A stretch of 64,000 bases of DNA from Tritonibacter horizontis (GTDB taxonomy: Bacteria > Pseudomonadota > Alphaproteobacteria > Rhodobacterales > Rhodobacteraceae): NCBI RefSeq assembly GCF_001518015.1, contig NZ_LPUY01000008.1:62001-126000 (forward strand), in the 5' to 3' direction. Below are positions 3,996 to 43,646 of this stretch, in pieces. Under the pieces are notes generated by a model. The model saw only the letters and a program-made list of their open reading frames with translations. It had not been told where the DNA came from and searched no databases. The stretch's first letter is position 1. Each line of letters opens with the position of its first letter. The position numbers and the translations under genes are program-made.

Positions 3996-4550
3996 TTATT
4001 TGGGACTGCGCTTGGCCAGAATGCGTTGCAAGGTCCGGCGGTGCATGTTTAGCCGCCTGGCGGTTTCCGAAACGTTGCGATCACAAAGCTCGTAAACCCG
4101 CTGGATATGTTCCCACCGCACCCGATCCGCGCTCATCGGGTTTTCGGGCGGCGGTGGCATCGCATCATCACTGGCCAGAAGCGCATCGGTGATGTCCTTG
4201 GCGTCGGCGGGTTTGGACAGGTAATCGGTGGCCCCGATCTTGACGGCCGCGACCGCTGTCGCAATCGCGCCATATCCGGTCAGCACCACAACGCGGCTAT
4301 CCGGACGCTTTTCACGCAGGGCTTCGACCACATCCAACCCATTGCCGTCTTCCAGCCGCAGATCCACCACAGCATAGGCCGGGGGGCGGGCCAGGGCGGC
4401 CGTTTTGCCATCCGCAACGGACCCGGCCGTTTCGACCACAAATCCGCGCTTTTCCATCGCCTTGGCCAACCGCCGCAAAAAGGGTTCATCGTCATCGACC
4501 AGCAAGAGCGAGGCATCGGGTCCGATCTCGGGCAAAGCAGCTTCGACCAT
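3996..4550 (-). CDS. regA: Redox response regulator RegA/PrrA/ActR
   Basis: Response regulator of the global redox system that controls respiration, photosynthesis, CO2 and nitrogen fixation genes in Rhodobacterales. The 184-residue protein has an N-terminal receiver with the acidic pair at Asp19-21, phospho-acceptor Asp63 (the same number as in R. capsulatus RegA), Thr91 and Lys113, then a proline-rich linker (PPPPENP), then a Fis-type helix-turn-helix (NVSETARRLNMHRRTLQRIL). An AAAGGAA site precedes the ATG. It lies between senC and a GT61 gene, with regB divergent across senC, which is the classical reg/prr arrangement. Confidence 0.97.
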   Translation of the reverse strand: MVEAALPEIGPDASLLLVDDDEPFLRRLAKAMEKRGFVVETAGSVADGKTAALARPPAYAVVDLRLEDGNGLDVVEALREKRPDSRVVVLTGYGAIATAVAAVKIGATDYLSKPADAKDITDALLASDDAMPPPPENPMSADRVRWEHIQRVYELCDRNVSETARRLNMHRRTLQRILAKRSPK

Positions 4551-4633
4551 TCAATTTCCTTTCAGCGTCAAGCGCCACAGTTTGTCCGAAGAGTGTAAGT
4601 GGCAACCTTCGGAGGTCAATTCTTCTCACAGGC

Positions 4634-5260
4634 TCAGCTGTTGTCGATGAAACAGGCGACCTGATCCGCCATCATGTCAGCAGATATATCCCGGCGAAAA
4701 AACTCCACAAACCCATGCTCCGGCAAGACCAGGTAGGACATGGTCGTATGATCGACGAGGTAATAGTCATCGTCCTCTTCGTCATGAGCCTTGTAATATG
4801 TCTTGTAGGCCTTGCTGGCGGCCTTGACCTGTTCTGGAGATCCGGTCAGCCCGATCATTTTTTCATGCATGTTATACGCAAAGTCACCGACGACTTCTGG
4901 CGTGTCCCGCTTTGGATCGATCGAAATAAAGACCGGCGTGGTGGAATAGCCCCGCTCCGCCAGCACATCCACCGCCTGGGCATTTCTGCTTGTGTCCATC
5001 GGGCAGACATCCGGGCAGAAAGTATACCCGAAATATACAAGGGACGGCTCGGTGATGACCTCCGCGTCGGTAACGGTCACCCCTGCCGCGTTCACCAACT
5101 CGAACGGACCGCCAATCGCACCAGAGCCGCCGGCAACTGCACCGGACCGGCATTCTGCAAAGGCATCCGCGCTGCCTTCTCCCCGCAATGTCAGGTACCA
5201 AAGACCGCCGAGCAGCGCCGCGATACAGGCAATCCCCAGAATTGCAAAATTTCGAACCAT
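4634..5260 (-). CDS. senC: SCO1/SenC/PrrC copper-binding assembly protein
   Basis: Membrane-anchored thioredoxin-fold protein that delivers copper to the Cu centre of cytochrome oxidases; as PrrC it also links oxidase state to the Reg/Prr system. The 208-residue protein has one N-terminal membrane anchor (residues 5-25) and the conserved copper ligands Cys82 and Cys86 (FCPDVC) plus His171 (LVDHTTMSYL). A variable acidic loop (DEEDDDYY) precedes the His ligand. It is 83 bases upstream of regA on the same strand and divergent from regB, so expression is likely linked to the operator in 5317-5347. Confidence 0.95.
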   Translation of the reverse strand: MVRNFAILGIACIAALLGGLWYLTLRGEGSADAFAECRSGAVAGGSGAIGGPFELVNAAGVTVTDAEVITEPSLVYFGYTFCPDVCPMDTSRNAQAVDVLAERGYSTTPVFISIDPKRDTPEVVGDFAYNMHEKMIGLTGSPEQVKAASKAYKTYYKAHDEEDDDYYLVDHTTMSYLVLPEHGFVEFFRRDISADMMADQVACFIDNS

Positions 5261-5316
5261 CTCTCTTTATCCTCTTTGACACGCCCGTCCTGTGCCGCCG
5301 CGGTAAATGTGCCGCA

Positions 5317-5347
5317 GTTGATCCGGGTCTGGGTCAGACCTATCAAC
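5317..5347. promoter_or_regulatory. Nested inverted repeat between senC and regB
   Basis: The 120-base divergent spacer holds two nearly concentric dyads: outer GTTGAT (5317-5322) with ATCAAC (5342-5347), inner GGTCT (5326-5330) with AGACC (5336-5340). It is the only strong symmetry in the spacer and lies 34 bases before the regB start. It could be an operator for RegA autoregulation or for another regulator. Confidence 0.5.
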
Positions 5348-5380
5348 TAATATCCGCGATGCAACGGGAGCAAACGTCAC

Positions 5381-6775
5381 ATGGGCGATTCAAGGCTTGG
5401 GCTACTGAACGGACAGGAGCGTAGCAACTGGATCCGGTTGCGCACATTGATCTTGCTTCGGTGGGTTGCGATCTTTGGTCAAGCCACAGCTATTGGCGTC
5501 GCGCAGACTCAATACGACTTACGATTGTCCATCCTGCCCTGTTACTTTGCAATAGGTGTCTCGGCCCTGGCCAACCTGATTGCGCTTGTTATTTTTCCTG
5601 AAAACAAGCGTCTGACGGAGTTTCAGAACTTTCTCATGGTTCTGTTCGACCTGCTTCAGCTCTGTTTTCTCCTGTATATGACAGGCGGGCTGAACAACCC
5701 GTTTGCGCTTTTGATCATCGGCCCCGTCACGATTTCGGCCTCGGTGATGGGATTGCGCCCGACCCTGATCATTGGGACAACCGCGATCCTTCTGACGTCA
5801 TTGCTCGTCCCGTTTCATGTTCCGTTGCAAACGGCCGATGGCGAGATCCTGAAAATGCCAACGCTCTTTGTCTTTGGGCATTGGAGCGCCCTGGTCATCG
5901 CAACCTTGTTTTTAGGGGCCTATTCCTATCGGATCAGCGCGGAAATCCGGTCGATGTCTGACGCCCTGGCCGCCACTCAGTTTGCCCTGTCCCGAGAACA
6001 GAAACTGACCGACCTTGGCGGCGTCGTCGCGGCAGCCGCGCATGAGCTGGGCACACCTCTGGCAACGATCAAATTGACCAGTTCGGAATTGATCGATGAA
6101 TTGGAGGATCACCCGGATTTGCAGGAAGACGCCAGACTGATCCGGGAACAGGCGGATCGATGCCGCTATATTCTGCGGAACATGGGACGAGTCGGAAATG
6201 ACGATCTGCATTTGCGGCAGGCACCGCTGTCGGCCCTGGTGCACGAAGCCGCGGAACCCCATTTCGGACGCGGAAAGGACATCCGTTTCAGCGAACATCC
6301 CGGTGATGAAGGCCAGCTCAACCAGCCAAGCATCCTTCGCAAGCCCGAGATCATCCATGGGCTGCGCAATTTGGTCCAGAACGCAGTGGATTTCGCCCAT
6401 TCAAGCGTTTGCATCGAACTCCATTGGAACGACGCCTGGATCACCGTTCAGATTTGCGACGATGGCGAAGGCTTCCCCGTCCATCTGCTTGGGCGTCTTG
6501 GTGACCCTTTCATGCGGCGGCGCTCAACTTTGGTGAATCCAAAACAGCGTCCGGAATACGAAGGCATGGGATTGGGTCTCTTTATCGCCAAAACCCTGCT
6601 GGAGCGCACCGGGGCAAGACTGGGCTTTGCGAACGGCGGCGACAAGCGGACCGCCCAAGCCACGATGACGCCACAGGGTGCTTTGGTCACCGTCACGTGG
6701 CCACGGAAAACAATCGACGCCGTCAGGGGTGACACCCCGGTCCCGACCGGTCAGAACCAGCCGTTACAATTTTAG
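5381..6775 (+). CDS. regB: Redox sensor histidine kinase RegB/PrrB
   Basis: Membrane sensor kinase that phosphorylates RegA when the quinone pool or cellular redox state becomes reduced. The 464-residue protein has six predicted membrane segments in residues 20-185, with the quinone-binding heptapeptide GGLNNPF at 102-108. The H-box is AAHELGTPLA with His221. The redox-active cysteine of the dimer interface is present as Cys261 in REQADRCRYIL, 40 residues after the His as in R. capsulatus (His225/Cys265). The N-box (RNLVQNAVDF), G1 (DDGEGF) and G2 (GMGLGL) of the ATP domain are intact. The ATG at 5381 follows a GGGAG site. Confidence 0.97.
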   Translation: MGDSRLGLLNGQERSNWIRLRTLILLRWVAIFGQATAIGVAQTQYDLRLSILPCYFAIGVSALANLIALVIFPENKRLTEFQNFLMVLFDLLQLCFLLYMTGGLNNPFALLIIGPVTISASVMGLRPTLIIGTTAILLTSLLVPFHVPLQTADGEILKMPTLFVFGHWSALVIATLFLGAYSYRISAEIRSMSDALAATQFALSREQKLTDLGGVVAAAAHELGTPLATIKLTSSELIDELEDHPDLQEDARLIREQADRCRYILRNMGRVGNDDLHLRQAPLSALVHEAAEPHFGRGKDIRFSEHPGDEGQLNQPSILRKPEIIHGLRNLVQNAVDFAHSSVCIELHWNDAWITVQICDDGEGFPVHLLGRLGDPFMRRRSTLVNPKQRPEYEGMGLGLFIAKTLLERTGARLGFANGGDKRTAQATMTPQGALVTVTWPRKTIDAVRGDTPVPTGQNQPLQF

Positions 6776-6797: not shown

Positions 6798-6813
6798 TTA
6801 AACTTCGTTTAAC
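6798..6813 (+). promoter_or_regulatory. CtrA-type binding site upstream of divL-like gene
   Basis: TTAAACTTCGTTTAAC fits the CtrA consensus TTAA-N7-TTAAC exactly and is also a 6-bp dyad around TTC. It lies 48 bases before the chosen start of the PAS gene, in an AT-rich intergenic stretch. Confidence 0.65.
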
Positions 6814-6860
6814 TATTGTCGCAGAAAATGACGACGATGAGAATAATCGAGGCGGTGTCG

Positions 6861-8411
6861 ATGCAGTATTTCATGTCGGTTGAATGGTTCGTTCTGGCGA
6901 CCCTTTGTGTGGCCAGCGCAGCCGTCGCGGTTTGGTTCCTGAACCCAAAACCTGAACGTCGTGGGATGGATCACGACCTTCTTGTCGCGGACGGGCGCAC
7001 GGATGCGGTGTTCTTGTTTGATGACCAGACCCTGATTGCGTGGTCCTCCGGCGCGCGCAAGTTCCTCGGCGAAAATGCAGAGGAATTCAGCTGGACGAAA
7101 CTTCGAGACAAACTCTCCCGCAGCTATCCCGGCCTGCCCCAATCACCGGGTTTTTTGCGCGATGTCGGTTCGCTGACTTTGACCGGCACCGCAGAAGCGG
7201 ACAATCGCGAAGCCCATTGCGAATGGATTGATGGCATCACGCGGGTGCAATTGCGCCGGGCCGCGTCCGAGCTGGGCGAAGTTGCTGATGACCAGGAACT
7301 GACAACGCTCCGCGCCGCCGTGCATCAGGCGCCCTACCCGGTCTGGCTGCAATCCGACGACGCCCGTGTGACCTGGACCAACCTTGCCTACGACCGTCTG
7401 AACCAGAAAATCTGCGGTCGCGGCAATGACACCTCTGCCCCGTTGTTTCCAAATCTGGATGCTCCGATGACCAGCGGACGGGCCGAGCGCATCTCGATCG
7501 AGCTGCCGGAGCTGGAAAAAAAGCTCTGGTACAACGTGTCGACCACGGAAACGGAGGCCGGCTGGCTCTGTCATGCCATGGATGTGAATGCGGTTGTCGA
7601 TGCCGAGGTCGCCCAGCGGAATTTCGTGCAGACCCTCGCCAAAACCTTTGCCCAGCTATCCATCGGCCTGGCCATCTTTGACAGAAATCGTCAACTGGTC
7701 CTGTTCAACCCGGTCCTGATTGACCTGACTGCCCTGCCGGCAAGTTTTCTCAGCTCCAGACCGAACCTGATGTCCTTTTTTGATCGTTTGCGCGATCAGC
7801 GTATGATGCCAGAACCAAAGAACTATTCGAGCTGGCGCCACCAGATGGCGGACTTGCTGGAAGCGGCGGCAGAGGGCCGTTACCAGGAAACATGGTCGCT
7901 GCCTTCGGGTTCCGTCTATTCCGTGTCCGGGCGTCCCCACCCGGATGGGGCGATTGCCTTTCTGTTCGAAGATATCACCGCAGAGATCACGCTGACGCGG
8001 CAGTTCCGCTCGGAGCTGGAACTTGGGCAATCCATTCTGGACAATATTGATGACGCGTTCGCGGTGTTTGGCGCGGATGGCAGCATGGTGTACTCCAACA
8101 CGGCGTACCATGAGATGTGGAAGACGAACCCTGACGCCAGCTTTGCCAAGATTTCGATCACCGACGCCTGTAAAATCTGGCAGGAGCTCTCCGGCCCAAC
8201 CCCGGCATGGGGAGAAATTCGCGACTTTGTTGCTGGTGGAACGGAGAACCGGGGGCCGTGGTGGTCCCGCGTAACCCTGCGCAACGGCGAACAACTGATA
8301 TGCCGCACGCAGTCGCTTCAGAATGGCTCCACCATGGTTCGGTTCCAGCAGGCAAGTGTACCGATTGCGCCCCCCGAACAGGAGCGTTTCACCGTCAGCA
8401 AAGAGACCTGA
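6861..8411 (+). CDS. divL: PAS-domain protein, DivL-like (no kinase domain)
   Basis: A 516-residue protein with one N-terminal membrane segment (residues 8-26) followed by several PAS-like modules; the last (near 400-500, QSILDNIDDAFAVFGADGSMVYSN) is the clearest. It ends without any DHp or ATPase domain. In Caulobacter, DivL is a PAS protein that controls the CckA-ChpT-CtrA phosphorelay, and the Rhodobacter homologue is reported to lack the kinase part; its position just before tsaE supports the same identity here. Starts at 6816 (TTG), 6828 and 6837 are possible, but only the ATG at 6861 has a good site (GAGGCGG). An exact CtrA box lies upstream. The family assignment is inference from architecture and synteny. 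Confidence 0.65.
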   Translation: MQYFMSVEWFVLATLCVASAAVAVWFLNPKPERRGMDHDLLVADGRTDAVFLFDDQTLIAWSSGARKFLGENAEEFSWTKLRDKLSRSYPGLPQSPGFLRDVGSLTLTGTAEADNREAHCEWIDGITRVQLRRAASELGEVADDQELTTLRAAVHQAPYPVWLQSDDARVTWTNLAYDRLNQKICGRGNDTSAPLFPNLDAPMTSGRAERISIELPELEKKLWYNVSTTETEAGWLCHAMDVNAVVDAEVAQRNFVQTLAKTFAQLSIGLAIFDRNRQLVLFNPVLIDLTALPASFLSSRPNLMSFFDRLRDQRMMPEPKNYSSWRHQMADLLEAAAEGRYQETWSLPSGSVYSVSGRPHPDGAIAFLFEDITAEITLTRQFRSELELGQSILDNIDDAFAVFGADGSMVYSNTAYHEMWKTNPDASFAKISITDACKIWQELSGPTPAWGEIRDFVAGGTENRGPWWSRVTLRNGEQLICRTQSLQNGSTMVRFQQASVPIAPPEQERFTVSKET

Positions 8412-25758: not shown

Positions 25759-26588
25759 TTAAGCGCTGCTTCCCGCAAGGCCTCATCAACTTCTGGCCGA
25801 TGCCCGAACCAACGTTCAAACCCTGGCACAGCCTGATGCAATAGCATTCCAAGCCCATCAACGGTCGTACAACCCGCCTGTTCGCCTGCTAGCAAAAGCT
25901 CGGTCTTTAGCGGCGCATAGACCAGATCGGCAACAACCGTTGAGGATTGCAACCCGTCCAGCGGTACCCGCAAGCGGCGCTGGCCAACCATTCCGAGAGA
26001 CGTGGTGTTCACAACCAGTGCTGCATCCTCGATGATATTGCCTGCTTGTGCCCAATCGACGACCCTGACCTTGTTGCCGAACATGCTGGCAAAGGTCTCC
26101 GCGCGGGCGCGGGTTCTATTTGTAAGACGGATTTCCGGTACGCCCGCTTCTATCAGCGACGCGACCACGGCGCGGCTTGCCCCCCCTGCGCCAAATACTG
26201 TCGCTGGCCCGGATTTTGGGTCCCAATCCGGCGCGCCCTGATGCAGGTTGGTGATGAATCCGTAACCATCCGTATTGTCAGCGACCACTGTCCCGTCTTC
26301 ACGGAAGATCAATGTATTCGCCGCACCCATAAGTTTCGCGCGATCGGTCACCTTGTCAGCAATCGTCATGATTGCTTCCTTGTGGGGAGCAGTGACATTC
26401 GCCCCCACAAACCCCATTTTTGGCAGCATTCGAATGATCTGTTCAAGGTCGTCCGCTTCCACATGCATCGGCACATAGTGCCCTTTTATCGCATGTGTAT
26501 CGAGCCAGTGTCGGTGCACCAAAGGAGAGCGCGACTGCGCAATCGGGCAGCCTATCACACCTGCGAGCGGGATTTTCTGCTCTGTCAT
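25755..26588 (-). CDS. aroE: Shikimate dehydrogenase (NADP+)
   Basis: Fourth step of the shikimate pathway: reduces 3-dehydroshikimate to shikimate with NADPH. The 277-residue protein shows the substrate site SRSPLVHRHWL and NVTAPHKEA (catalytic Lys), the dinucleotide site GAGGASRAVVA and NRTRARAE (the Arg favours NADP), and the GLGMLLHQAVPGFERWFG end. It overlaps maf upstream and coaE downstream by 4 bases each. Confidence 0.96.
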   Translation of the reverse strand: MTEQKIPLAGVIGCPIAQSRSPLVHRHWLDTHAIKGHYVPMHVEADDLEQIIRMLPKMGFVGANVTAPHKEAIMTIADKVTDRAKLMGAANTLIFREDGTVVADNTDGYGFITNLHQGAPDWDPKSGPATVFGAGGASRAVVASLIEAGVPEIRLTNRTRARAETFASMFGNKVRVVDWAQAGNIIEDAALVVNTTSLGMVGQRRLRVPLDGLQSSTVVADLVYAPLKTELLLAGEQAGCTTVDGLGMLLHQAVPGFERWFGHRPEVDEALREAALK

Positions 26589-27184
26589 TGTTCGATTATC
26601 CCCTGCAGACCTAGGTAACTTATGATTTCCAACATCGGTAATCCCAAAACATTAAAGTAGCTGCCGTCAATGGTTGTAAACAGCCGGACACCCTCTTCTT
26701 CCAATTTATAGGCTCCGACGGCATGTCGAATGCTGTCCCAATTGCGTGCCACATAATCCTCTAGGTAGCTGTCGCTACTTTGCCGCATCGCCATCCGAAC
26801 CTGCCCGACGTGCCGCCAGAGCGGCATACCATCCCGGTAGATGACTGCCGCGGACAATAGCGTGTGGCGCTTCCCCCGCATGTCCTTCAACTGTTCCAGC
26901 GCAGTTTCCGGTGTCACAGGTTTCGACAACAGGCGGCCTTCGAAATCCAGCACCTGATCGCATCCCAGTACAAGCCGGTTTGGGTGGCGCCCGGAAACCT
27001 TGCGCGCCTTTGCCTCAGCCAAGGCATCAGCGATGTCTCGCGGTGACGCGCCTTCCGACAACAATGCTGCCTTAATTGCGCCTTCATCGACGCGGGCACG
27101 TTCTACCTCTACGTTAACATTTGCCTGACGGAGCAACTGTGCACGGATGGCAGATCCGGAGGCCAGAACGATGTGGGTACTCAT
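26585..27184 (-). CDS. maf: Maf-like nucleoside triphosphate pyrophosphatase
   Basis: Housecleaning pyrophosphatase that removes non-canonical or methylated nucleotides, and a septum-related factor in some bacteria. The 199-residue protein has the ASGSAIRAQLL nucleotide site, DEGAIK, and GCDQVLDFEGRLLSKP in the position of the usual catalytic Asp. It heads the maf-aroE-coaE-dnaQ operon and is the first gene left of the putative origin, transcribed away from it. A DnaA-like box (27184-27192) touches its start codon. Confidence 0.94.
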   Translation of the reverse strand: MSTHIVLASGSAIRAQLLRQANVNVEVERARVDEGAIKAALLSEGASPRDIADALAEAKARKVSGRHPNRLVLGCDQVLDFEGRLLSKPVTPETALEQLKDMRGKRHTLLSAAVIYRDGMPLWRHVGQVRMAMRQSSDSYLEDYVARNWDSIRHAVGAYKLEEEGVRLFTTIDGSYFNVLGLPMLEIISYLGLQGIIEQ

Positions 27185-27364
27185 GTGGAAAACCCTATGG
27201 GAAAGCGTCTGATGGTTCTGGGACGTTTTGTATGCATTTCACCGCTCAGCGCAAGGCTTGGACTAAACCCCGGTTTTGATGAAAATTCTCCATGATTCCT
27301 CCATGGGGGATTGGGATAACTTTCAGAGCGTGGATAACTCGGCTCATCCCGGTTTGTCCCGGTC

Positions 27365-27373
27365 TTATCCACA
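27365..27373 (+). other. Perfect DnaA box
   Basis: TTATCCACA, identical to the consensus DnaA 9-mer, near the centre of the maf-hemJ spacer and 28 bases from an oppositely oriented 8/9 box at 27329-27337. Confidence 0.8.
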
Positions 27374-27392
27374 AGAGTGGAAAGGTAAACAT

Positions 27393-27428
27393 ATGGTTAA
27401 CACCCATATTTTTCAGGGTGTTAACCAT
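27393..27428. repeat. 13-bp perfect inverted repeat in the origin tract
   Basis: ATGGTTAACACCC (27393-27405) and GGGTGTTAACCAT (27416-27428) flank a 10-base AT-rich loop. Both arms carry GTTAAC. It could be a protein-binding dyad or an extruding hairpin at the origin; as a transcription terminator it is unlikely, because no gene ends into it. Confidence 0.75.
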
Positions 27429-27532
27429 TTATTCAGGTCTGTGTCAGGAATGTGGCGCAAAATCTGTCCACGTTGTGAGTAGCAGTGCGAATGACTCGAT
27501 AATCCACCGAAAACAGGGTGCACTACAAAAAC

Positions 27533-27563
27533 ATCATCCTTATAAAACTAATTAATATTTAAG
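27533..27563. other. AT-rich block, candidate DNA unwinding element
   Basis: A run dominated by A and T (CTTATAAAACTAATTAATAT is its core, then TTAAGG) lies between the DnaA boxes and hemJ, the usual position for the strand-opening element of a bacterial origin. It may also contain the hemJ promoter. Confidence 0.55.
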
Positions 27564-27602
27564 GGGGGCCCATGGGTCCTGTTCGGAACAAGGAACCCGA
27601 TC

Positions 27603-28058
27603 ATGGACCTGACAGATCTGATGTTCACCCTCTACCCCTATGCGAAATCTCTTCACATCATGGCAGTGCTGAGCTGGATGGCAGGGCTGTTCTATCTTCC
27701 ACGGCTTTTTGTGTATCACGTCGAGCAAGCTCAGAAATATGAACAGATCCAGCCGATCTTCGTGACGATGGAACAGAAGCTGTTGAAACTGATCATGCGA
27801 CCAGCCAGCATTGTGGCATGGGCTGCAGGGCTGTTCATGGTCTTCACACCAGGGATCGTTGATTGGTCCTACGTCTGGCCCTGGACCAAAGGCGCATCCG
27901 TGCTTGCGATGACCTGGTTTCACCACTGGCTGATACGACGTCAAGCAGCCTTCGCTACGGGTGAAAACAAGCTCACTGGGCGGCAATATCGGTTGATGAA
28001 CGAGGTCCCGACCCTTCTGATGGTCATCATCGTTGTATCGGTCGTTTTCAAGTTCTGA
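27603..28058 (+). CDS. hemJ: Protoporphyrinogen oxidase HemJ
   Basis: Membrane enzyme that oxidises protoporphyrinogen IX to protoporphyrin IX, the penultimate step of heme synthesis, in most alphaproteobacteria lacking HemY and HemG. The 151-residue protein has four membrane segments and the family motif SLHIMAVLSWMAGLFYLPRLFVYH split across helix 1, with the conserved His at 18, and MRPASIVAWAAGL. An AAGGAA site precedes the ATG at 27603. It is the first gene right of the putative origin. Confidence 0.93.
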   Translation: MDLTDLMFTLYPYAKSLHIMAVLSWMAGLFYLPRLFVYHVEQAQKYEQIQPIFVTMEQKLLKLIMRPASIVAWAAGLFMVFTPGIVDWSYVWPWTKGASVLAMTWFHHWLIRRQAAFATGENKLTGRQYRLMNEVPTLLMVIIVVSVVFKF

Positions 28059-28059
28059 C

Positions 28060-28073
28060 GTGTCATTTGACAC
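28060..28073. promoter_or_regulatory. Short dyad between hemJ and rho
   Basis: GTGTCATTTGACAC (6-bp arms around TT) lies 2 bases after the hemJ stop and 112 bases before rho. It could be an operator for rho or a weak 3' hairpin of hemJ; there is no T run. Confidence 0.25.
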
Positions 28074-28185
28074 AGACCAGCAGACCCAGTACTAACGGCC
28101 CAGCGGACCCGTCCGGGATTCCCGCCATTTCCGTATCTTTATCGTGATGTCCTCTGCTGGCAGAGGGAACAAGGGCCGTTTGTGA

Positions 28186-29457
28186 ATGACCGAGCAATCT
28201 CTGAATCTTTCTGATCTCAAGGCCAAAAGCCCCAAGGACCTCCTCGCCATGGCTGAGGAGCTGGAGATCGAGAATGCCTCGACCATGCGCAAGGGCGAGA
28301 TGATGTTCCAGATCCTGCGCGAACGCGCCGATGAGGGATGGGAAATCGCCGGCGATGGCGTTTTGGAAGTGCTTCAAGACGGTTTCGGCTTTCTGCGGTC
28401 GCCAGAGGCCAACTATCTGCCTGGTCCGGATGATATCTACGTTTCTCCTGACATGATCCGACAGTTGTCGCTGCGCACTGGCGATACGGTCGAGGGTCAG
28501 ATCAAGGCGCCGCTTGAAAACGAACGCTATTTTGCGCTGACAACGGTCACCAAAATCAACTTTGAAGAGCCTGAAAAGGCACGCCACAAAATTGCGTTTG
28601 ATAACCTGACGCCGCTTTATCCTGACGAGCGGATGACCATGGAAATCGAAGATCACTCTGCCAAGGATCGGTCTTCGCGAGTGATTGATCTGGTTGCGCC
28701 GATAGGCAAGGGCCAGCGGTCCCTGATCGTTGCGCCACCACGGACCGGTAAAACGGTTCTGTTGCAGAATATTGCGCATTCGATCGAGCAAAATCACCCG
28801 GAATGCTATCTGATCGTTTTGCTGATCGACGAACGTCCCGAAGAGGTGACAGACATGCAACGTTCGGTCAAAGGTGAGGTTGTCTCCTCTACCTTCGACG
28901 AACCCGCTGCGCGTCACGTGGCCGTCTCTGAAATGGTGATCGAAAAAGCGAAACGGCTCGTCGAACACAAACGAGATGTTGTTATTCTTCTGGACTCCAT
29001 CACAAGACTTGGCCGAGCCTTCAACACTGTTGTGCCATCTTCCGGCAAAGTGCTGACAGGTGGTGTTGATGCAAATGCGCTGCAACGTCCAAAACGGTTC
29101 TTTGGGGCGGCACGGAACATCGAAGAGGGCGGATCTCTGACGATTATCGCGACTGCTCTGATCGACACCGGCAGTCGGATGGATGAAGTTATCTTTGAAG
29201 AATTCAAAGGTACGGGCAACTCCGAGATCGTTCTGGACCGCAAGATTGCCGACAAACGGGTGTTCCCCGCAATCGACATCCTCAAGTCTGGAACCCGGAA
29301 GGAAGAGCTCCTGGTCGACAAGGTGGATCTGGCAAAAACCTTTGTTCTGCGGCGTATTCTGAACCCGATGGGGACAACGGACGCCATCGAGTTCCTGCTC
29401 TCTAAGCTCAAGCAAACAAAGACAAATACGGAATTCTTCGACTCAATGAACACCTAG
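28186..29457 (+). CDS. rho: Transcription termination factor Rho
   Basis: Hexameric RNA helicase that ends transcription of untranslated RNA. The 423-residue protein has the N-terminal helix bundle, the RNA-binding cold-shock-like domain with [23 protein letters not shown], the P-loop [11 protein letters not shown] near residue 183, the RERPEEV-type Q-loop region and a conserved C-terminus. Length is standard. The ATG at 28186 follows an AAGGG site. Codon use changes to a more AT-rich style in the next gene (mnmE), not in rho. Confidence 0.97.
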
Positions 29458-30777: not shown

Positions 30778-30793
30778 TGTTTCACGTGAAACA
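30778..30793. other. parS centromere site 1
   Basis: TGTTTCACGTGAAACA, a perfect 16-bp palindrome identical to the universal ParB-binding parS sequence. It spans the mnmE-mnmG junction, with the mnmG GTG start codon in its centre (30786). Confidence 0.95.
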
Positions 30794-32660: not shown

Positions 32661-33274
32661 GCGTCGATCTTGTTCGAGCCCATTTCAATGTTTCACGTGA
32701 AACATCGGAGCGGCTGGATATTTTTGCAGCAACGCTGAAAAAGTGGAATCCAAAGATAAATTTGGTTTCTAAAGGCAGTCTGACATGTCTGTGGGAGCGG
32801 CATATCCTGGACAGTATCCAGGTCTTCCATGCGGTGGAGACGCCACCGTCGTGGCTGGATCTTGGAAGCGGAGGAGGGCTGCCAGGTTTGATCGTTGCCA
32901 TTCTTGCTGCCGAACTTTCGCCCAAAACCTTGATCACCTTGATTGAAAGTGACCAACGAAAATGTGCGTTTTTGAGAAATGTAGCTAGAGAATGTGAAAT
33001 CTCAGTCTTGGTGAAGTCCGAACGCATTGAGACAGCTGATCCAGAGAACGCACATGTGATTTCCGCGCGTGCCCTTGCGGATTTAGATACCCTTTTGTCG
33101 TTTTCAAAACGACATCTTCAACAAGGTGGCGTTTCAGTCTTTCCAAAAGGCGAAAGCTGGAAAAAAGAAGTGGATAACGCTCGCGAACGATGGCGGTTTG
33201 AATGCGAAGAGATTACAAGTCTAACTGAGCCTGAGGCTGTCATTCTCAAGATCAAGGGAGTAGAGCGTGTCTGA
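32657..33274 (+). CDS. rsmG: 16S rRNA (guanine-N7) methyltransferase RsmG (GidB)
   Basis: Methylates N7 of G527 (E. coli numbering) in 16S rRNA; loss gives low-level streptomycin resistance. The 205-residue protein has the SAM-binding [17 protein letters not shown] (from residue 65) and [18 protein letters not shown], and SARALADL. The segment NVSRET near residue 11-16 is encoded by a parS site, which constrains these codons. It overlaps mnmG by 4 bases and parA by 8. Confidence 0.95.
32689..32704. other. parS centromere site 2
   Basis: A second perfect copy of TGTTTCACGTGAAACA, inside the rsmG reading frame, where it encodes part of NVSRETS. It is 1.9 kb from site 1 and 0.6 kb before parA. 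Confidence 0.95.
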
Positions 33275-34079
33275 CATGTCCCGTTTGGGAGACCCCCGCA
33301 TAATTGCCATTGCAAACCAGAAGGGTGGGGTAGGTAAGACAACCACAGCAATAAACCTCGCGGCAGCCTTGGTAGAAGAGGGGATGCGCGTCCTACTTGT
33401 TGATTTGGATCCTCAGGGCAACGCATCGACAGGTTTGGGTGTGGAAGCGGATGCACGCGAACACACCACCTATGACCTTCTCGTTGAATCAGCGGATTTG
33501 TCCGATGTGATCAGACAGACCGATCTAGATGACCTTTGTATTATTCCTGCAACCGTCGATTTGAGCTCTGCGGATATCGAGCTTATTTCAAATGAGAAGC
33601 GAAGCTACCTGCTACATGATGCTTTGCGACAACCGGCAATGGCAGAATATGATTGGGACTATATTCTGATTGATTGCCCTCCATCTCTCAATCTTCTGAC
33701 CGTCAACGCTATGGTTGCCGCGCATTCGGTTCTGATTCCGCTTCAAAGTGAGTTTTTTGCCTTGGAGGGCCTGTCACAGCTGATGCTGACTATTCGAGAA
33801 GTTCGACAGGCTGCAAATCCCAAACTTCGGATCGAAGGCGTTGTGTTGACAATGTATGATCGTCGAAACAACCTGTCTCAACAGGTTGAGCAAGATGCGC
33901 GGGAAAACCTGGGAGATTTGGTGTTTCGAACCAAAATCCCACGCAATGTTCGTGTCAGCGAGGCGCCATCCTATGCCATGCCTGTGTTGAGCTACGATTC
34001 TACCTCTCTGGGAGCCAAGGCGTACCGACAGCTTGCCGGAGAATTGATTGCCAACAACCAAGAAGTAGCGGCCGAATAA
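33267..34079 (+). CDS. parA: Chromosome partitioning ATPase ParA
   Basis: Walker-type ATPase that forms the gradient driving ParB-parS complexes apart. The 270-residue protein has the deviant Walker A KGGVGKT at 19-25, the second-Lys signature of the family, [13 protein letters not shown] and [16 protein letters not shown]. There is no N-terminal DNA-binding extension, so it is a chromosomal-type ParA. The GTG at 33267 has GGGAG 6 bases upstream and overlaps rsmG by 8; an ATG at 33276 is the alternative. It is followed 12 bases later by parB. Confidence 0.96.
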
Positions 34080-34091
34080 AAGGGGCGAGTA

Positions 34092-34991
34092 ATGTCAGAT
34101 AAAAAACCCAAACCTCGGGGATTGGGCCGCGGGCTCTCCGCTCTTATGGCAGATGTCAACGCAGAACCGGTAAGCACGGACAGCGGTAGACCGCCTAGAA
34201 ATGCCGAAATCCTGGTTCCGACCGAAAAAGTACAGGCGAACCCGGATCAGCCGCGACGTCAATTTTTGCAGGAAGATCTTGATGATCTGACAGCTTCCAT
34301 CAAAGAAAAGGGGGTATTGCAGCCCCTTATTGTACGGCCACGCGATGGTGGAATGTATGAAATTGTCGCAGGCGAACGCCGCTGGCGTGCAGCACAGGCT
34401 GCTCAATTGCATGAGGTTCCTGTTCTTATTCGCGACTACTCCGATGTGGAAATGTTGGAAGTTGCGATTATTGAGAACATTCAACGTTCCGACCTGAATG
34501 CGTTGGAAGAAGCGCAAAGCTATAAGCAGCTGATGGACAAATTTGGACATACTCAGGAGAAAATGGCGGAGGCGCTGGGGAAAAGTCGCAGCCACATTGC
34601 CAACCTGGTTCGTTTATTGCATTTGCCGACCGACGTTCAAACCTTGGTACTTGATCGAAAGCTCTCAGCGGGGCACGCGCGCGCATTGATCACCTCTGAC
34701 AACGCGTCAGAGCTGGCAAAGCGGATCGTCAAAGGCGGGCTGTCTGTTCGCGCAACCGAAGCATTGGTCAAGAAAGACGCGGCAGGTGTCGCGGGATCCA
34801 GTTCGGCGAAAAAGCCGAAATCGCAGGCTGAGAAAGATGCAGATACGCGCGCGCTTGAATCTGATCTTTCGGCGATGGTGAGGATGAAGGTGTCGATTGA
34901 CCACAAACCTGGCGGTGAATCTGGTACGGTCACAATCACCTATGAGACGCTGGATCAGCTGGACGAACTTTGTAATCTTCTTAGCCGTTAG
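34092..34991 (+). CDS. parB: Chromosome partitioning protein ParB
   Basis: CTP-dependent DNA clamp that loads at parS and spreads to form the centromere complex. The 299-residue protein begins with the ParA-activating basic tail (KPKPRGLGRGLSALM), then the CTP-binding domain with QPRRQF and the GERRWRAAQAA motif, then the helix-turn-helix TQEKMAEALGKSRSHIANLVRLLHLP, a Lys/Ser linker and a C-terminal dimerisation domain. Its two likely loading sites are at 30778 and 32689. The last 11 bases overlap the convergent DUF454 gene. Confidence 0.97.
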   Translation: MSDKKPKPRGLGRGLSALMADVNAEPVSTDSGRPPRNAEILVPTEKVQANPDQPRRQFLQEDLDDLTASIKEKGVLQPLIVRPRDGGMYEIVAGERRWRAAQAAQLHEVPVLIRDYSDVEMLEVAIIENIQRSDLNALEEAQSYKQLMDKFGHTQEKMAEALGKSRSHIANLVRLLHLPTDVQTLVLDRKLSAGHARALITSDNASELAKRIVKGGLSVRATEALVKKDAAGVAGSSSAKKPKSQAEKDADTRALESDLSAMVRMKVSIDHKPGGESGTVTITYETLDQLDELCNLLSR

Positions 34992-42473: not shown

Positions 42474-43322
42474 TCAGGAGTAGAGAGAGCGCAGCGATCC
42501 CGGCGAGGCATTGGCGATCGACAGCGACAAACCGCCAAGCTGTTCTTGCGCGCTGAGGGCTTCGAAACGGGCGGCTGCATCTTCCATATCGGTATCGGTC
42601 AGCTCGCTGATCCCCATCTGGATCGCGTCGCTCAGCTTGTCCATAAAGACATCCTGCTCAGCAAGTTGCTGCGCACCGGCGCCGAGGGCCGCGGCACTGT
42701 CCGTCGCATATCGCAGGAAACCTTCGATCTCGGTCAAGGCCGTTCGCGCAGAGGCTGCATCGGTGACGGTTGTGCGGTTGTTGATGTCAAAGCTGGTGCT
42801 GCTTTCGAAATCGACACCGCCGATGCTGATCGTGGACAGGGTCGGCGCATCGCTGCCAGAACGGTCCTGGGACGCTGCGACGTTCAAGCCGGTCCCACCG
42901 CTACCGTCCGTGTCGGTCGCAAGCAGGTTGACACCGTTGAAGCTCGACGAGGAAATGATCGTGTTGATCTGCTCGGTCTTCTGGGCGAGCTGTTCTTCGA
43001 CCATCGAATAATCAGCAGTGCCAGAGCTGGCGAGGATCGTCAGTTCCTTCATGTCGGTCAACAGATTGGTGATCTGCTCCGCGCCGGCAGAGGCAACTGA
43101 AACAGTGGCCTCACCGATGTTCAGGCCGTTGGATGTGGCCTCAAACCCGGCCAGATCCGACCCCATGATTTCTGAAATCGCCCAGATCGCCGGCGCGTCC
43201 TTGGCTTCGTCTACGTCCTTGCCGGTGGAGATATCGTCCTGGACGTCCTCTTTTTCCACCTGGTTGTTCGAAAGGACCCGGAGCGCGATCTCGGCTCCTG
43301 GATTGGTATTGATACTGGTCAT
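42474..43322 (-). CDS. Divergent flagellin-like protein
   Basis: A 282-residue protein with flagellin ends. The N-terminal D0/D1-type helix (SINTNPGAEIALRVLSNN, then DISTGKDVDEAKDAPAIWAIS) and the C-terminal one (LGGLSLSIANASPGSLRSLYS) match flagellins, but the usual STG-(K/R)-V and DN-A motifs are altered to KDVDEAKDAPA and the surface is strongly acidic. No other flagellar gene is in the window. It is monocistronic, with AGGGG upstream of the ATG at 43322 and its own terminator. It could be a minor filament subunit or an adapted homologue; assignment to the flagellin family is firm, function is not. Confidence 0.82.
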   Translation of the reverse strand: MTSINTNPGAEIALRVLSNNQVEKEDVQDDISTGKDVDEAKDAPAIWAISEIMGSDLAGFEATSNGLNIGEATVSVASAGAEQITNLLTDMKELTILASSGTADYSMVEEQLAQKTEQINTIISSSSFNGVNLLATDTDGSGGTGLNVAASQDRSGSDAPTLSTISIGGVDFESSTSFDINNRTTVTDAASARTALTEIEGFLRYATDSAAALGAGAQQLAEQDVFMDKLSDAIQMGISELTDTDMEDAAARFEALSAQEQLGGLSLSIANASPGSLRSLYS

Positions 43323-43646
43323 GCATGCACCCCTAAATAACCCATTACCTGGTTCAAGTGTTTCATTTGGCCGGTCCCGATCGGGTCGGGAGCAGCGGGG
43401 GATGCCATTCTGACAATTGCAGTCAACAACGAAGTCGCTGCGCCACCTGGCGTTCAAGCGCCGTTAAGAAACACCACGCAATTGTAGCAAACCGGGGTCT
43501 GAAGTGGGGCGAAACTTTGACTATCTGTTATCTTTTAACTCTGGATTTGACTGAAAATCAAAATGCTGAATCGTGAAAGCGGTGGATTGAGAGGATCCTT
43601 CGGCTGGGATATGACAGGGTCTGACCAGGAGAGGACGAGGACCAAG
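43323..43646. other. Divergent intergenic region, flagellin-like gene and maeB
   Basis: 324 bases without a supportable gene. The left part carries the leader of the flagellin-like gene and a 10-bp palindrome CCCGATCGGG (43376-43385). The right part is AT-rich with two TTTGACT copies 30 bases apart (43516-43522 and 43546-43552), which might be -35 elements, but I find no convincing -10 partners. The maeB frame stays open back to 43563 without a ribosome site. Confidence 0.5.

Follow-up and report, generated by a model that had tools for sequence, protein, structure and literature searches.

Sequence anatomy of a probable chromosomal replication origin between maf and hemJ in Tritonibacter horizontis

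The stretch of Tritonibacter horizontis DNA analysed here (64,000 nucleotides, hereafter the window) belongs to contig C8 (352,446 bp) of a draft genome of 4.86 Mb in 139 contigs, and raises the question of whether the chromosome starts its replication in the 418-bp gap that separates the divergent genes maf and hemJ, and by means of which sequence elements. An earlier note, made from the letters alone, had proposed an origin there; its coordinates for the gap, 27185–27602, were found to be exact, as maf ends at 27184 and hemJ starts at 27603. Leftward beyond maf lie aroE, coaE and a gene for an exonuclease-domain protein, and rightward the gene order after hemJ is rho, mnmE, mnmG, rsmG, parA and parB. 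The sole NCBIfam match for 27603–28058 was TIGR00701 (HemJ), at 123 bits, which is below its cut-off of 138. The parABS system was placed correctly at 3–7 kb from the gap, with parS sites at 30778 and 32689 and parA/parB at 33267–34991. Since 101 Rhodobacteraceae origins have already been located in silico with Ori-Finder (PMC6699656), using the same criteria (GC-disparity minimum, DnaA boxes and parAB proximity), an origin location such as this one is of a known kind. In contrast to the present analysis, the available part of that study gives no sequence anatomy, and the 19-mer, CtrA-like and IHF-like sites treated below are not described in it. Such a location is usual in the group, and the new detail lies in the conserved unwinding element and a clade-specific CtrA-like site. 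Judged from composition and homology, 27185–27602 is in all probability the oriC of the main chromosome.

A cumulative GC-skew minimum had been expected near 27.4 kb, and along C8 the cumulative skew descended before window position 27125 and ascended after it, so that the minimum over the 352-kb contig lies 60 bp from the gap. The same distance was found in a second genome of the genus (G006), where the minimum fell at 3,030,353 within the contiguous 2.95–3.11 Mb examined (160 kb) and the homologous gap begins at 3,030,413. The G006 contig (3,200,938 bp) behaves as a full chromosome with two replichores over 28 sampled 20-kb stretches: skew was positive in every stretch between 3.03 Mb and the end of the contig and in every one up to 1.22 Mb, it was negative in all from 1.40 to 3.03 Mb bar one at 2.80 Mb (+0.016), and the opposite switch lay between 1.22 and 1.40 Mb, approximately half the contig away from 3.03 Mb. 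The position at a replichore switch, as for a DnaA-type oriC, was thereby found in both same-genus genomes. For the wider family, 10 of the 17 genomes with eight contigs or fewer were examined (one of the 17 was without a HemJ match and one had a weak match), and the minimum within 80 kb lay at most 1.6 kb from the hemJ start in four of the ten (G348, G436, G446 and G404). Three more switched sign with a minimum 18–22 kb to the left (G171, G414 and G492, the last weakly), and no sign change near hemJ was seen in the 80 kb of the other three (G500, G503 and G435). A moved origin or a local rearrangement could be the cause of these exceptions; all ten genomes encode maf, hemJ, rho, mnmG and parB in the same order together with at least one exact parS.

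The gap itself was 406–419 bp long in all 18 genus genomes (T. horizontis included). From 218 matches of a HemJ search, 80 named loci were kept, and in 78 of these maf and hemJ diverge across a gap of 348–446 bp; the remaining two yielded no gap sequence, L095 because its contig ends there and L139 because maf was not found, hence the 78 named gaps used below, a set that partly overlaps the 18 genus genomes. Conserved blocks were taken from an alignment of 79 sequences (Table 1). An 87-aa ORF is open within the gap (27292–27555), with single-base indels seen in relatives. In a tree built from MnmE and Maf, the rows nearest to the window were Tritonibacter mobilis, a MedPE-SWcel metagenome genome, Phaeobacter sp. 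B1627 and Epibacterium sp., which places the host among the roseobacters of this group. A maf-hemJ origin region was also present in L073, a record whose title, Nocardioides marinus DP1N28-1, names an actinobacterium but which groups with Leisingera on the tree; it is probably misnamed or contaminated. A plasmid origin was rejected, as positions 26000–29000 of the window had no near match among 72,556 plasmid records.

The one perfect and four degenerate DnaA boxes listed in the earlier note, in both orientations, were all recovered (TTATCCACA at 27365, and TTATCCACG, TTATCCCAA, TAATCCACC and TTTTCCACA). Boxes with at most one mismatch from TTATCCACA numbered two in the window's gap compared to 0.19 per shuffle (P 0.016), with means of 2.83 against 0.11 in shuffles for the genus gaps and 2.44 against 0.12 for the named gaps, 77 of the 78 carrying at least one box; a looser pattern, TTWTNCACA, was not significant in the window's gap alone (2 against 1.17, P 0.33). 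Strict boxes were not enriched across the whole window (10 found, 7.5 expected), and it is therefore their clustering that constitutes the signal: together with the maf edge, the gap is the only place on the 352-kb contig with at least three strict boxes per 418 bp. The central box was nearly invariant in the 33 rows of the clade discussed below (32 named rows plus the window, chosen from names and alignment), rows which were themselves found by the box pattern. A DnaA-box cluster in a gene-free region and an AT-rich unwinding element beside the boxes, both features of a DnaA-type oriC, were thus found here, and skew minima, box cluster and comparative footprinting agree with the earlier proposal of a chromosomal origin between maf and hemJ.

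Table 1. Features of the maf-hemJ region in window coordinates, with their conservation or basis.
Feature	Position	Strand	Conservation or basis
Candidate oriC, intergenic between divergent maf and hemJ	27185–27602		Skew minimum at 27125; near-constant gap length
maf (Maf-like nucleotide pyrophosphatase), left flank	26585–27184	-	Pfam PF02545 (Maf)
hemJ, right flank	27603–28058	+	Pfam UPF0093
DnaA box TTTTCCACA at maf edge	27184–27192	-	GTGGANAA conserved in family alignment
TTTGTATG, probably -10 element of maf promoter	27227–27234	-	Invariant in 18/18 genus rows
GANTC (GATTC), likely CcrM methylation site	27294–27298		Invariant in 18/18 genus rows
Degenerate DnaA box TTATCCCAA	27311–27319	-	Core GGATAA (27314) conserved
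DnaA box TTATCCACG	27329–27337	-	GGATA at 27331 conserved
Central DnaA box, perfect TTATCCACA	27365–27373	+	TTATCC[A/C]CA in relatives; aligned block TTATCCNCA
CtrA-like site TAAA-N7-TTAA, then C	27386–27400		Starts exactly 21 bp after central-box start
Inverted repeat, 13-bp arms, 10-nt loop, around two TTAAC half-sites	27393–27428		Arms not kept in relatives
Second CtrA-like site TTAA-N7-TTCA, inverted relative to first	27421–27435		Present in part of clade
Further DnaA-box position, degenerate in window	27474–27482	-	TGNGGATAA in many relatives; aligned block TGNGGANAA
GANTC (GACTC)	27493–27497		GANTC retained in 17/18 genus rows as aligned
DUE-proximal DnaA box TAATCCACC	27500–27508	+	T[T/A]ATCCACN in most of family; aligned block TNATCCACN
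Putative unwinding element CTACAAAAACATCATCCTT, 19-mer, possible deviant DnaA-trio-like array	27523–27541	+	Conserved across family
AT-rich DNA unwinding element, least stable 30-mer	27533–27562		Stability profile of gap
parS, perfect 16-mer	30778–30793		Exact match
parS, perfect 16-mer	32689–32704		Exact match
parA (33267–34079) and parB (34092–34991)	33267–34991	+	Profile matches

Both GANTC sites reported previously (27294 and 27493) are present. Their number in the window's gap alone was not above chance (P 0.48); the mean per genus gap was 4.22 compared to 1.71 in shuffles, and that per named gap 2.97 compared to 1.79, with the motif present in 63 of 78. The whole window holds 93 GANTC against 326 expected in shuffles, making the motif about 3.5 times rarer, a scarcity that might be expected given CcrM-type methylation in the genome. 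One N6_N4_Mtase-domain protein, likely CcrM, is encoded on C8 at a distance of approximately 215 kb; GcrA is also encoded in the genome.

The most constrained element of the gap was not singled out in the earlier note. It is the 19-mer at 27523–27541, beside the AT-rich tract, which occurs as a single exact copy in the genome, with only one other place added when up to three mismatches are allowed. The module recurs in the same order across the family, comprising a DnaA box, 13–14 nt, CTACAAAANCATCATCCTT (the 19-mer block at 27523) and then an AT- or pyrimidine-rich tract, and in 78 of 87 rows the 19-mer begins 13–14 nt after the 9-bp DnaA box (14–15 nt after ATCCAC). Among the 83 rows fitting the pattern, the successive triplets were CTA in 75, CAA in 58, AAA/AAC/AAT in 64, CAT in 65, CAT in 61 and CCT in 57. 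The AT-rich block was confirmed as the least stable 30-mer of the gap (27533–27562), and the least stable 30-mer was centred 20–75 bp from hemJ in 18/18 genus, 54/78 named and 5/8 further family gaps; in the remaining 24 named gaps it lay centrally in 23 (163–198 bp from hemJ) and at 19 bp in one. Two genomes with long gaps, G492 and G500, were excluded from the stability and spacer counts.

This arrangement resembles the basal unwinding system (PMC8287927), for which the available part of the source gives a rule of at least three consecutive NAN triplets with adenine in the middle (DnaA-trios), 3'-GAT-5' as the commonest trio next to the box, and a spacer peak at 10–13 nt. The likeness lies in a DnaA box, a spacer of 13–14 nt, CTA (3'-GAT-5') as the first triplet and then an AT-rich tract, and the box stands at the distance from the first 3'-GAT-5' trio, about 10–16 nt, that the rule in this source describes. 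A further difference is that roseobacters in general keep the array with strong conservation. The inner triplets are CAA-AAA-CAT-CAT here and without the middle adenine. For this reason the published rule of at least three NAN triplets fails in the CTA frame, the window reading 3'-GAT GTT TTT GTA GTA-5', and a strict DnaA-trio reading was rejected. As the middle-adenine rule does not hold, we describe the module as working like the basal unwinding system rather than filing it as a member. Deviant trios without the middle adenine are suspected in the same source (PMC8287927), and a few relatives come closer to a classic trio array, for example L133 with CTACTATTACATC; the sequence suggests that the 19-mer may be a derived DnaA-trio array. 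It would then offer a natural test of how far DnaA-trios can deviate while still opening DNA. A class-wide alphaproteobacterial unwinding motif was dropped as an idea, with the 16-mer (one mismatch) matching in 71 of 385 class genomes and a reversed control also matching, less often.

In the middle of the gap, the left CtrA-like site begins exactly 21 bp, or two helical turns, past where the central DnaA box starts in 27 of the 33 clade rows. The share of the commonest base at this site was 0.90 over its eight core columns, compared to 0.56 over the seven spacer columns and 0.60 in the flanks (33 rows). The CtrA reading was formed after the alignment had been viewed, and was controlled using other spacings and words, shuffles, the contig-wide density and the MnmE and Maf tree. 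With at most one mismatch allowed, TTAA-N7-TTAA sites numbered three in the window's gap against 0.25 in shuffles (none of 500 shuffles reached three), 2.22 against 0.38 in the genus gaps and 1.17 against 0.36 in the named gaps; the third one-mismatch site of the window sits in the AT tract, and its origin is without an exact site. Among half-site spacings of 0–20 the top count came at 7, although the counts at 5, 6 and 8 were elevated too; when nine other AT words were tried with the spacing of 7, they gave 0.17–1.17 per genus gap. Of the 23 one-mismatch sites on C8 in total, the gap holds the only cluster of at least three per 418 bp. CtrA is encoded in the genome (NF045991, 430 bits, cut-off 350), with a one-mismatch site 74 bp before the start of ctrA. 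The Caulobacter consensus TTAA-N7-TTAAC has served for CtrA-site prediction in D. shibae (PMC4046655). Its exact form was not enriched in the present genome (13 matches against 24 for the reversed control) and was rejected for marking CtrA targets across the genome.

How these sites are distributed was followed on the MnmE and Maf tree, built by a quick method from 77 rows with the origin sequence excluded (L094 and L138 are absent from these rows, out of the 78 named plus the window). The tree recovers the clade. Of 28 site-bearing rows, 27 fall within a 32-row clade with an SH-aLRT of 97 and the 28th, L136, lies outside; the site label requires six changes on the tree compared to 23 in shuffles.

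Several other explanations of the gap and its elements have to be weighed against these observations. If the gap served maf and hemJ merely as a divergent promoter region, its conserved elements would be promoters or regulator sites and the origin would lie elsewhere, e.g. near dnaA, which is located on a different contig (C20) and which a survey reports as conserved near the origin in Rhodobacterales (PMC8116508). Together, TTTGTATG and a conserved GCAA that reads TTGC in the direction of maf do fit a maf promoter, and the three family genomes without a skew switch here point the same way. These observations stand against a skew minimum at the gap in both same-genus genomes examined, a strict DnaA-box cluster unique on its contig, and a gap length that is near-constant across the 78 named loci; in addition, the 19-mer is unlike a sigma-70 promoter and the -10-like TATAAA is not maintained in the family. 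We consider a mere promoter region highly improbable. A narrower explanation takes only the 19-mer to be a promoter or leader element of hemJ instead of an unwinding element, consistent with its position 62–80 bp upstream of the hemJ start codon. It nevertheless begins at the stated distance from the DnaA box in 78 of 87 rows, directly before the AT-rich tract, and in G492, where a hemE-like gene stands between the region and hemJ, an CTACAACAACC stretch and AT-rich tract are still found on the maf side; no CTACAACAACC-type stretch was seen by eye in G500, which is arranged like G492. A role in hemJ expression is accordingly judged unlikely, and the 19-mer is treated here as a putative unwinding element.

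The inverted repeat and the central site have rival explanations of their own. The 13-bp perfect repeat pointed out earlier is real in the window (arms 27393–27405 and 27416–27428, within an 18-nt pair) but did not hold up as a conserved hairpin, being perfect in one of the 28 site-bearing rows, with a mean arm pairing of 7.75/13 over these rows at the best of seven shifts and with the window (13/13) included. Positions 26000–29000 had no Rfam match at E up to 1, on which an RNA element was rejected. A functional hairpin or cruciform, acting as a terminator or a single-strand initiation structure, is thus very hard to maintain despite the perfect arms, and the repeat is best read from its sequence as a pair of CtrA-like TTAA-N7-TTAA-like sites with one mismatch each. 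A stronger competitor is that the central TAAA-N7-TTAA is a diverged site for IHF or another nucleoid protein. Outside the clade, an exact IHF-type match (one strand, central 100 bp) was found in 17 of 46 loci compared to 0.33 in mononucleotide shuffles, and among the 21 non-clade loci with a central box it starts 32–33 bp after the box in seven, which is the place of the second TTAA half; IHF-like matches with at most one mismatch are also central in 11 of 32 clade loci, and the failure of the exact CtrA consensus to be enriched genome-wide fits the same explanation. CtrA-like matches with at most one mismatch were central in seven of the 46 non-clade loci, and an exact TTAA-N7-TTAA somewhere in the gap of 10 of 30 loci from the group termed 'other' was counted against the CtrA reading. 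Against an IHF site, the clade keeps both half-sites but not the 7-bp spacer, which is the pattern of a tandem TTAA repeat, and spacing 7 ranks highest even with its neighbours raised; an exact TTAA-N7-TTAA is present in two Pseudophaeobacter-like loci, and the Leisingera group has the CtrA-like site at the fixed offset in 10 of 11 loci and IHF-like central matches in none of 11. We regard a diverged site for IHF or another nucleoid protein as a substantial possibility, somewhat short of an even chance. The matches of either kind on both sides of the clade boundary speak against a clean exchange of one site for the other. Our best reading is that the CtrA-like site was gained once where an IHF-like position had been and was lost several times afterwards, but this is not a proof.

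From the observed location, the conserved elements and their spacing, we infer the following course of initiation, including all steps of binding, unwinding order, methylation and regulation. DnaA would occupy the boxes spread over 27185–27602 and be passed from the box at 27500–27508 across 13–14 nt onto CTACAAAAACATCATCCTT, where it would open the AT-rich tract at 27540–27562 for helicase loading. Forks would then depart both ways, co-directional with maf and hemJ, and ParB at the two parS sites 3–5 kb off would segregate the new origins, while the conserved GANTC sites may let CcrM-type methylation mark the replication state. Within the clade, a regulator probably binds mid-origin as well, at TAAA-N7-TTAAC. 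CtrA is the most likely candidate, and from this site, two helical turns past where the central box starts, it could compete or co-assemble with DnaA.

CtrA control of the origin is plausible on the sequence evidence. A bolder proposal is that in the Tritonibacter-Leisingera-Pseudophaeobacter-Zongyanglinia group an IHF-type position was rewired once to a CtrA site, whose distance to the core DnaA box is exactly two helical turns, such that a quorum-sensing-linked CtrA relay directly gates initiation, with a strongly conserved, deviant DnaA-trio array for unwinding; this we put forward tentatively, as a possibility that is rather more doubtful than not. If true, CtrA would have been recruited to an origin in an order where it is considered non-essential, and outside Caulobacter and the Rickettsiales predictions. 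With a CtrA-like site so precisely placed in a conserved origin, direct control could be tested by one footprint or point mutation.

The nearest known parallels are Cori of Caulobacter crescentus and the predicted origins of Rickettsia, Wolbachia, Ehrlichia and Anaplasma (PMC1914354, PMC4468827), which in the available parts of these sources likewise have a heme-gene neighbour, several DnaA boxes and CtrA and IHF sites. CtrA sites in Rickettsiales origins have thus been predicted before (PMC1914354). In Cori, which lies between hemE and COG1806, there are five CtrA sites, near or overlapping DnaA sites (PMC1914354, PMC4468827), in contrast to the two or three one-mismatch CtrA-like sites, maf/hemJ flanks and consensus TTATCCACA box found here. 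In G492 and G500 (80 kb around hemJ; loci L234–L241), the origin region is separated from hemJ by a gene that looks by eye like hemE, which matches the hemE flank reported for the Caulobacter and Rickettsia origins. In Phaeobacter inhibens, CtrA-relay mutants showed the strongest repression near oriC/terC, the sites of the flagellar cluster and a prophage (PMC12363192), and the available parts of the sources on the CtrA relay name no direct target at the origin. A search limited to the main text of open-access articles brought up no published account of either the 19-mer or CtrA-like sites within the origin of a roseobacter.

Several features elsewhere in the window were also noted. An exact CtrA-type motif, TTAAACTTCGTTTAAC, occurs at 6798–6813, just upstream of a gene for a PAS_7 protein (6816–8411), which has no NCBIfam match and is possibly DivL-like; CtrA control of divL has been inferred for some Rhodobacterales (PMC2877005). 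At 3996–6775, approximately 20–23 kb left of the origin, the gene for a RegA-type response regulator is grouped with those for an SCO1/SenC protein and a RegB histidine kinase. On the other side, approximately 15 kb from the origin, a flagellin gene was found at 42474–43457, with a one-mismatch CtrA-like site overlapping its start (43453).
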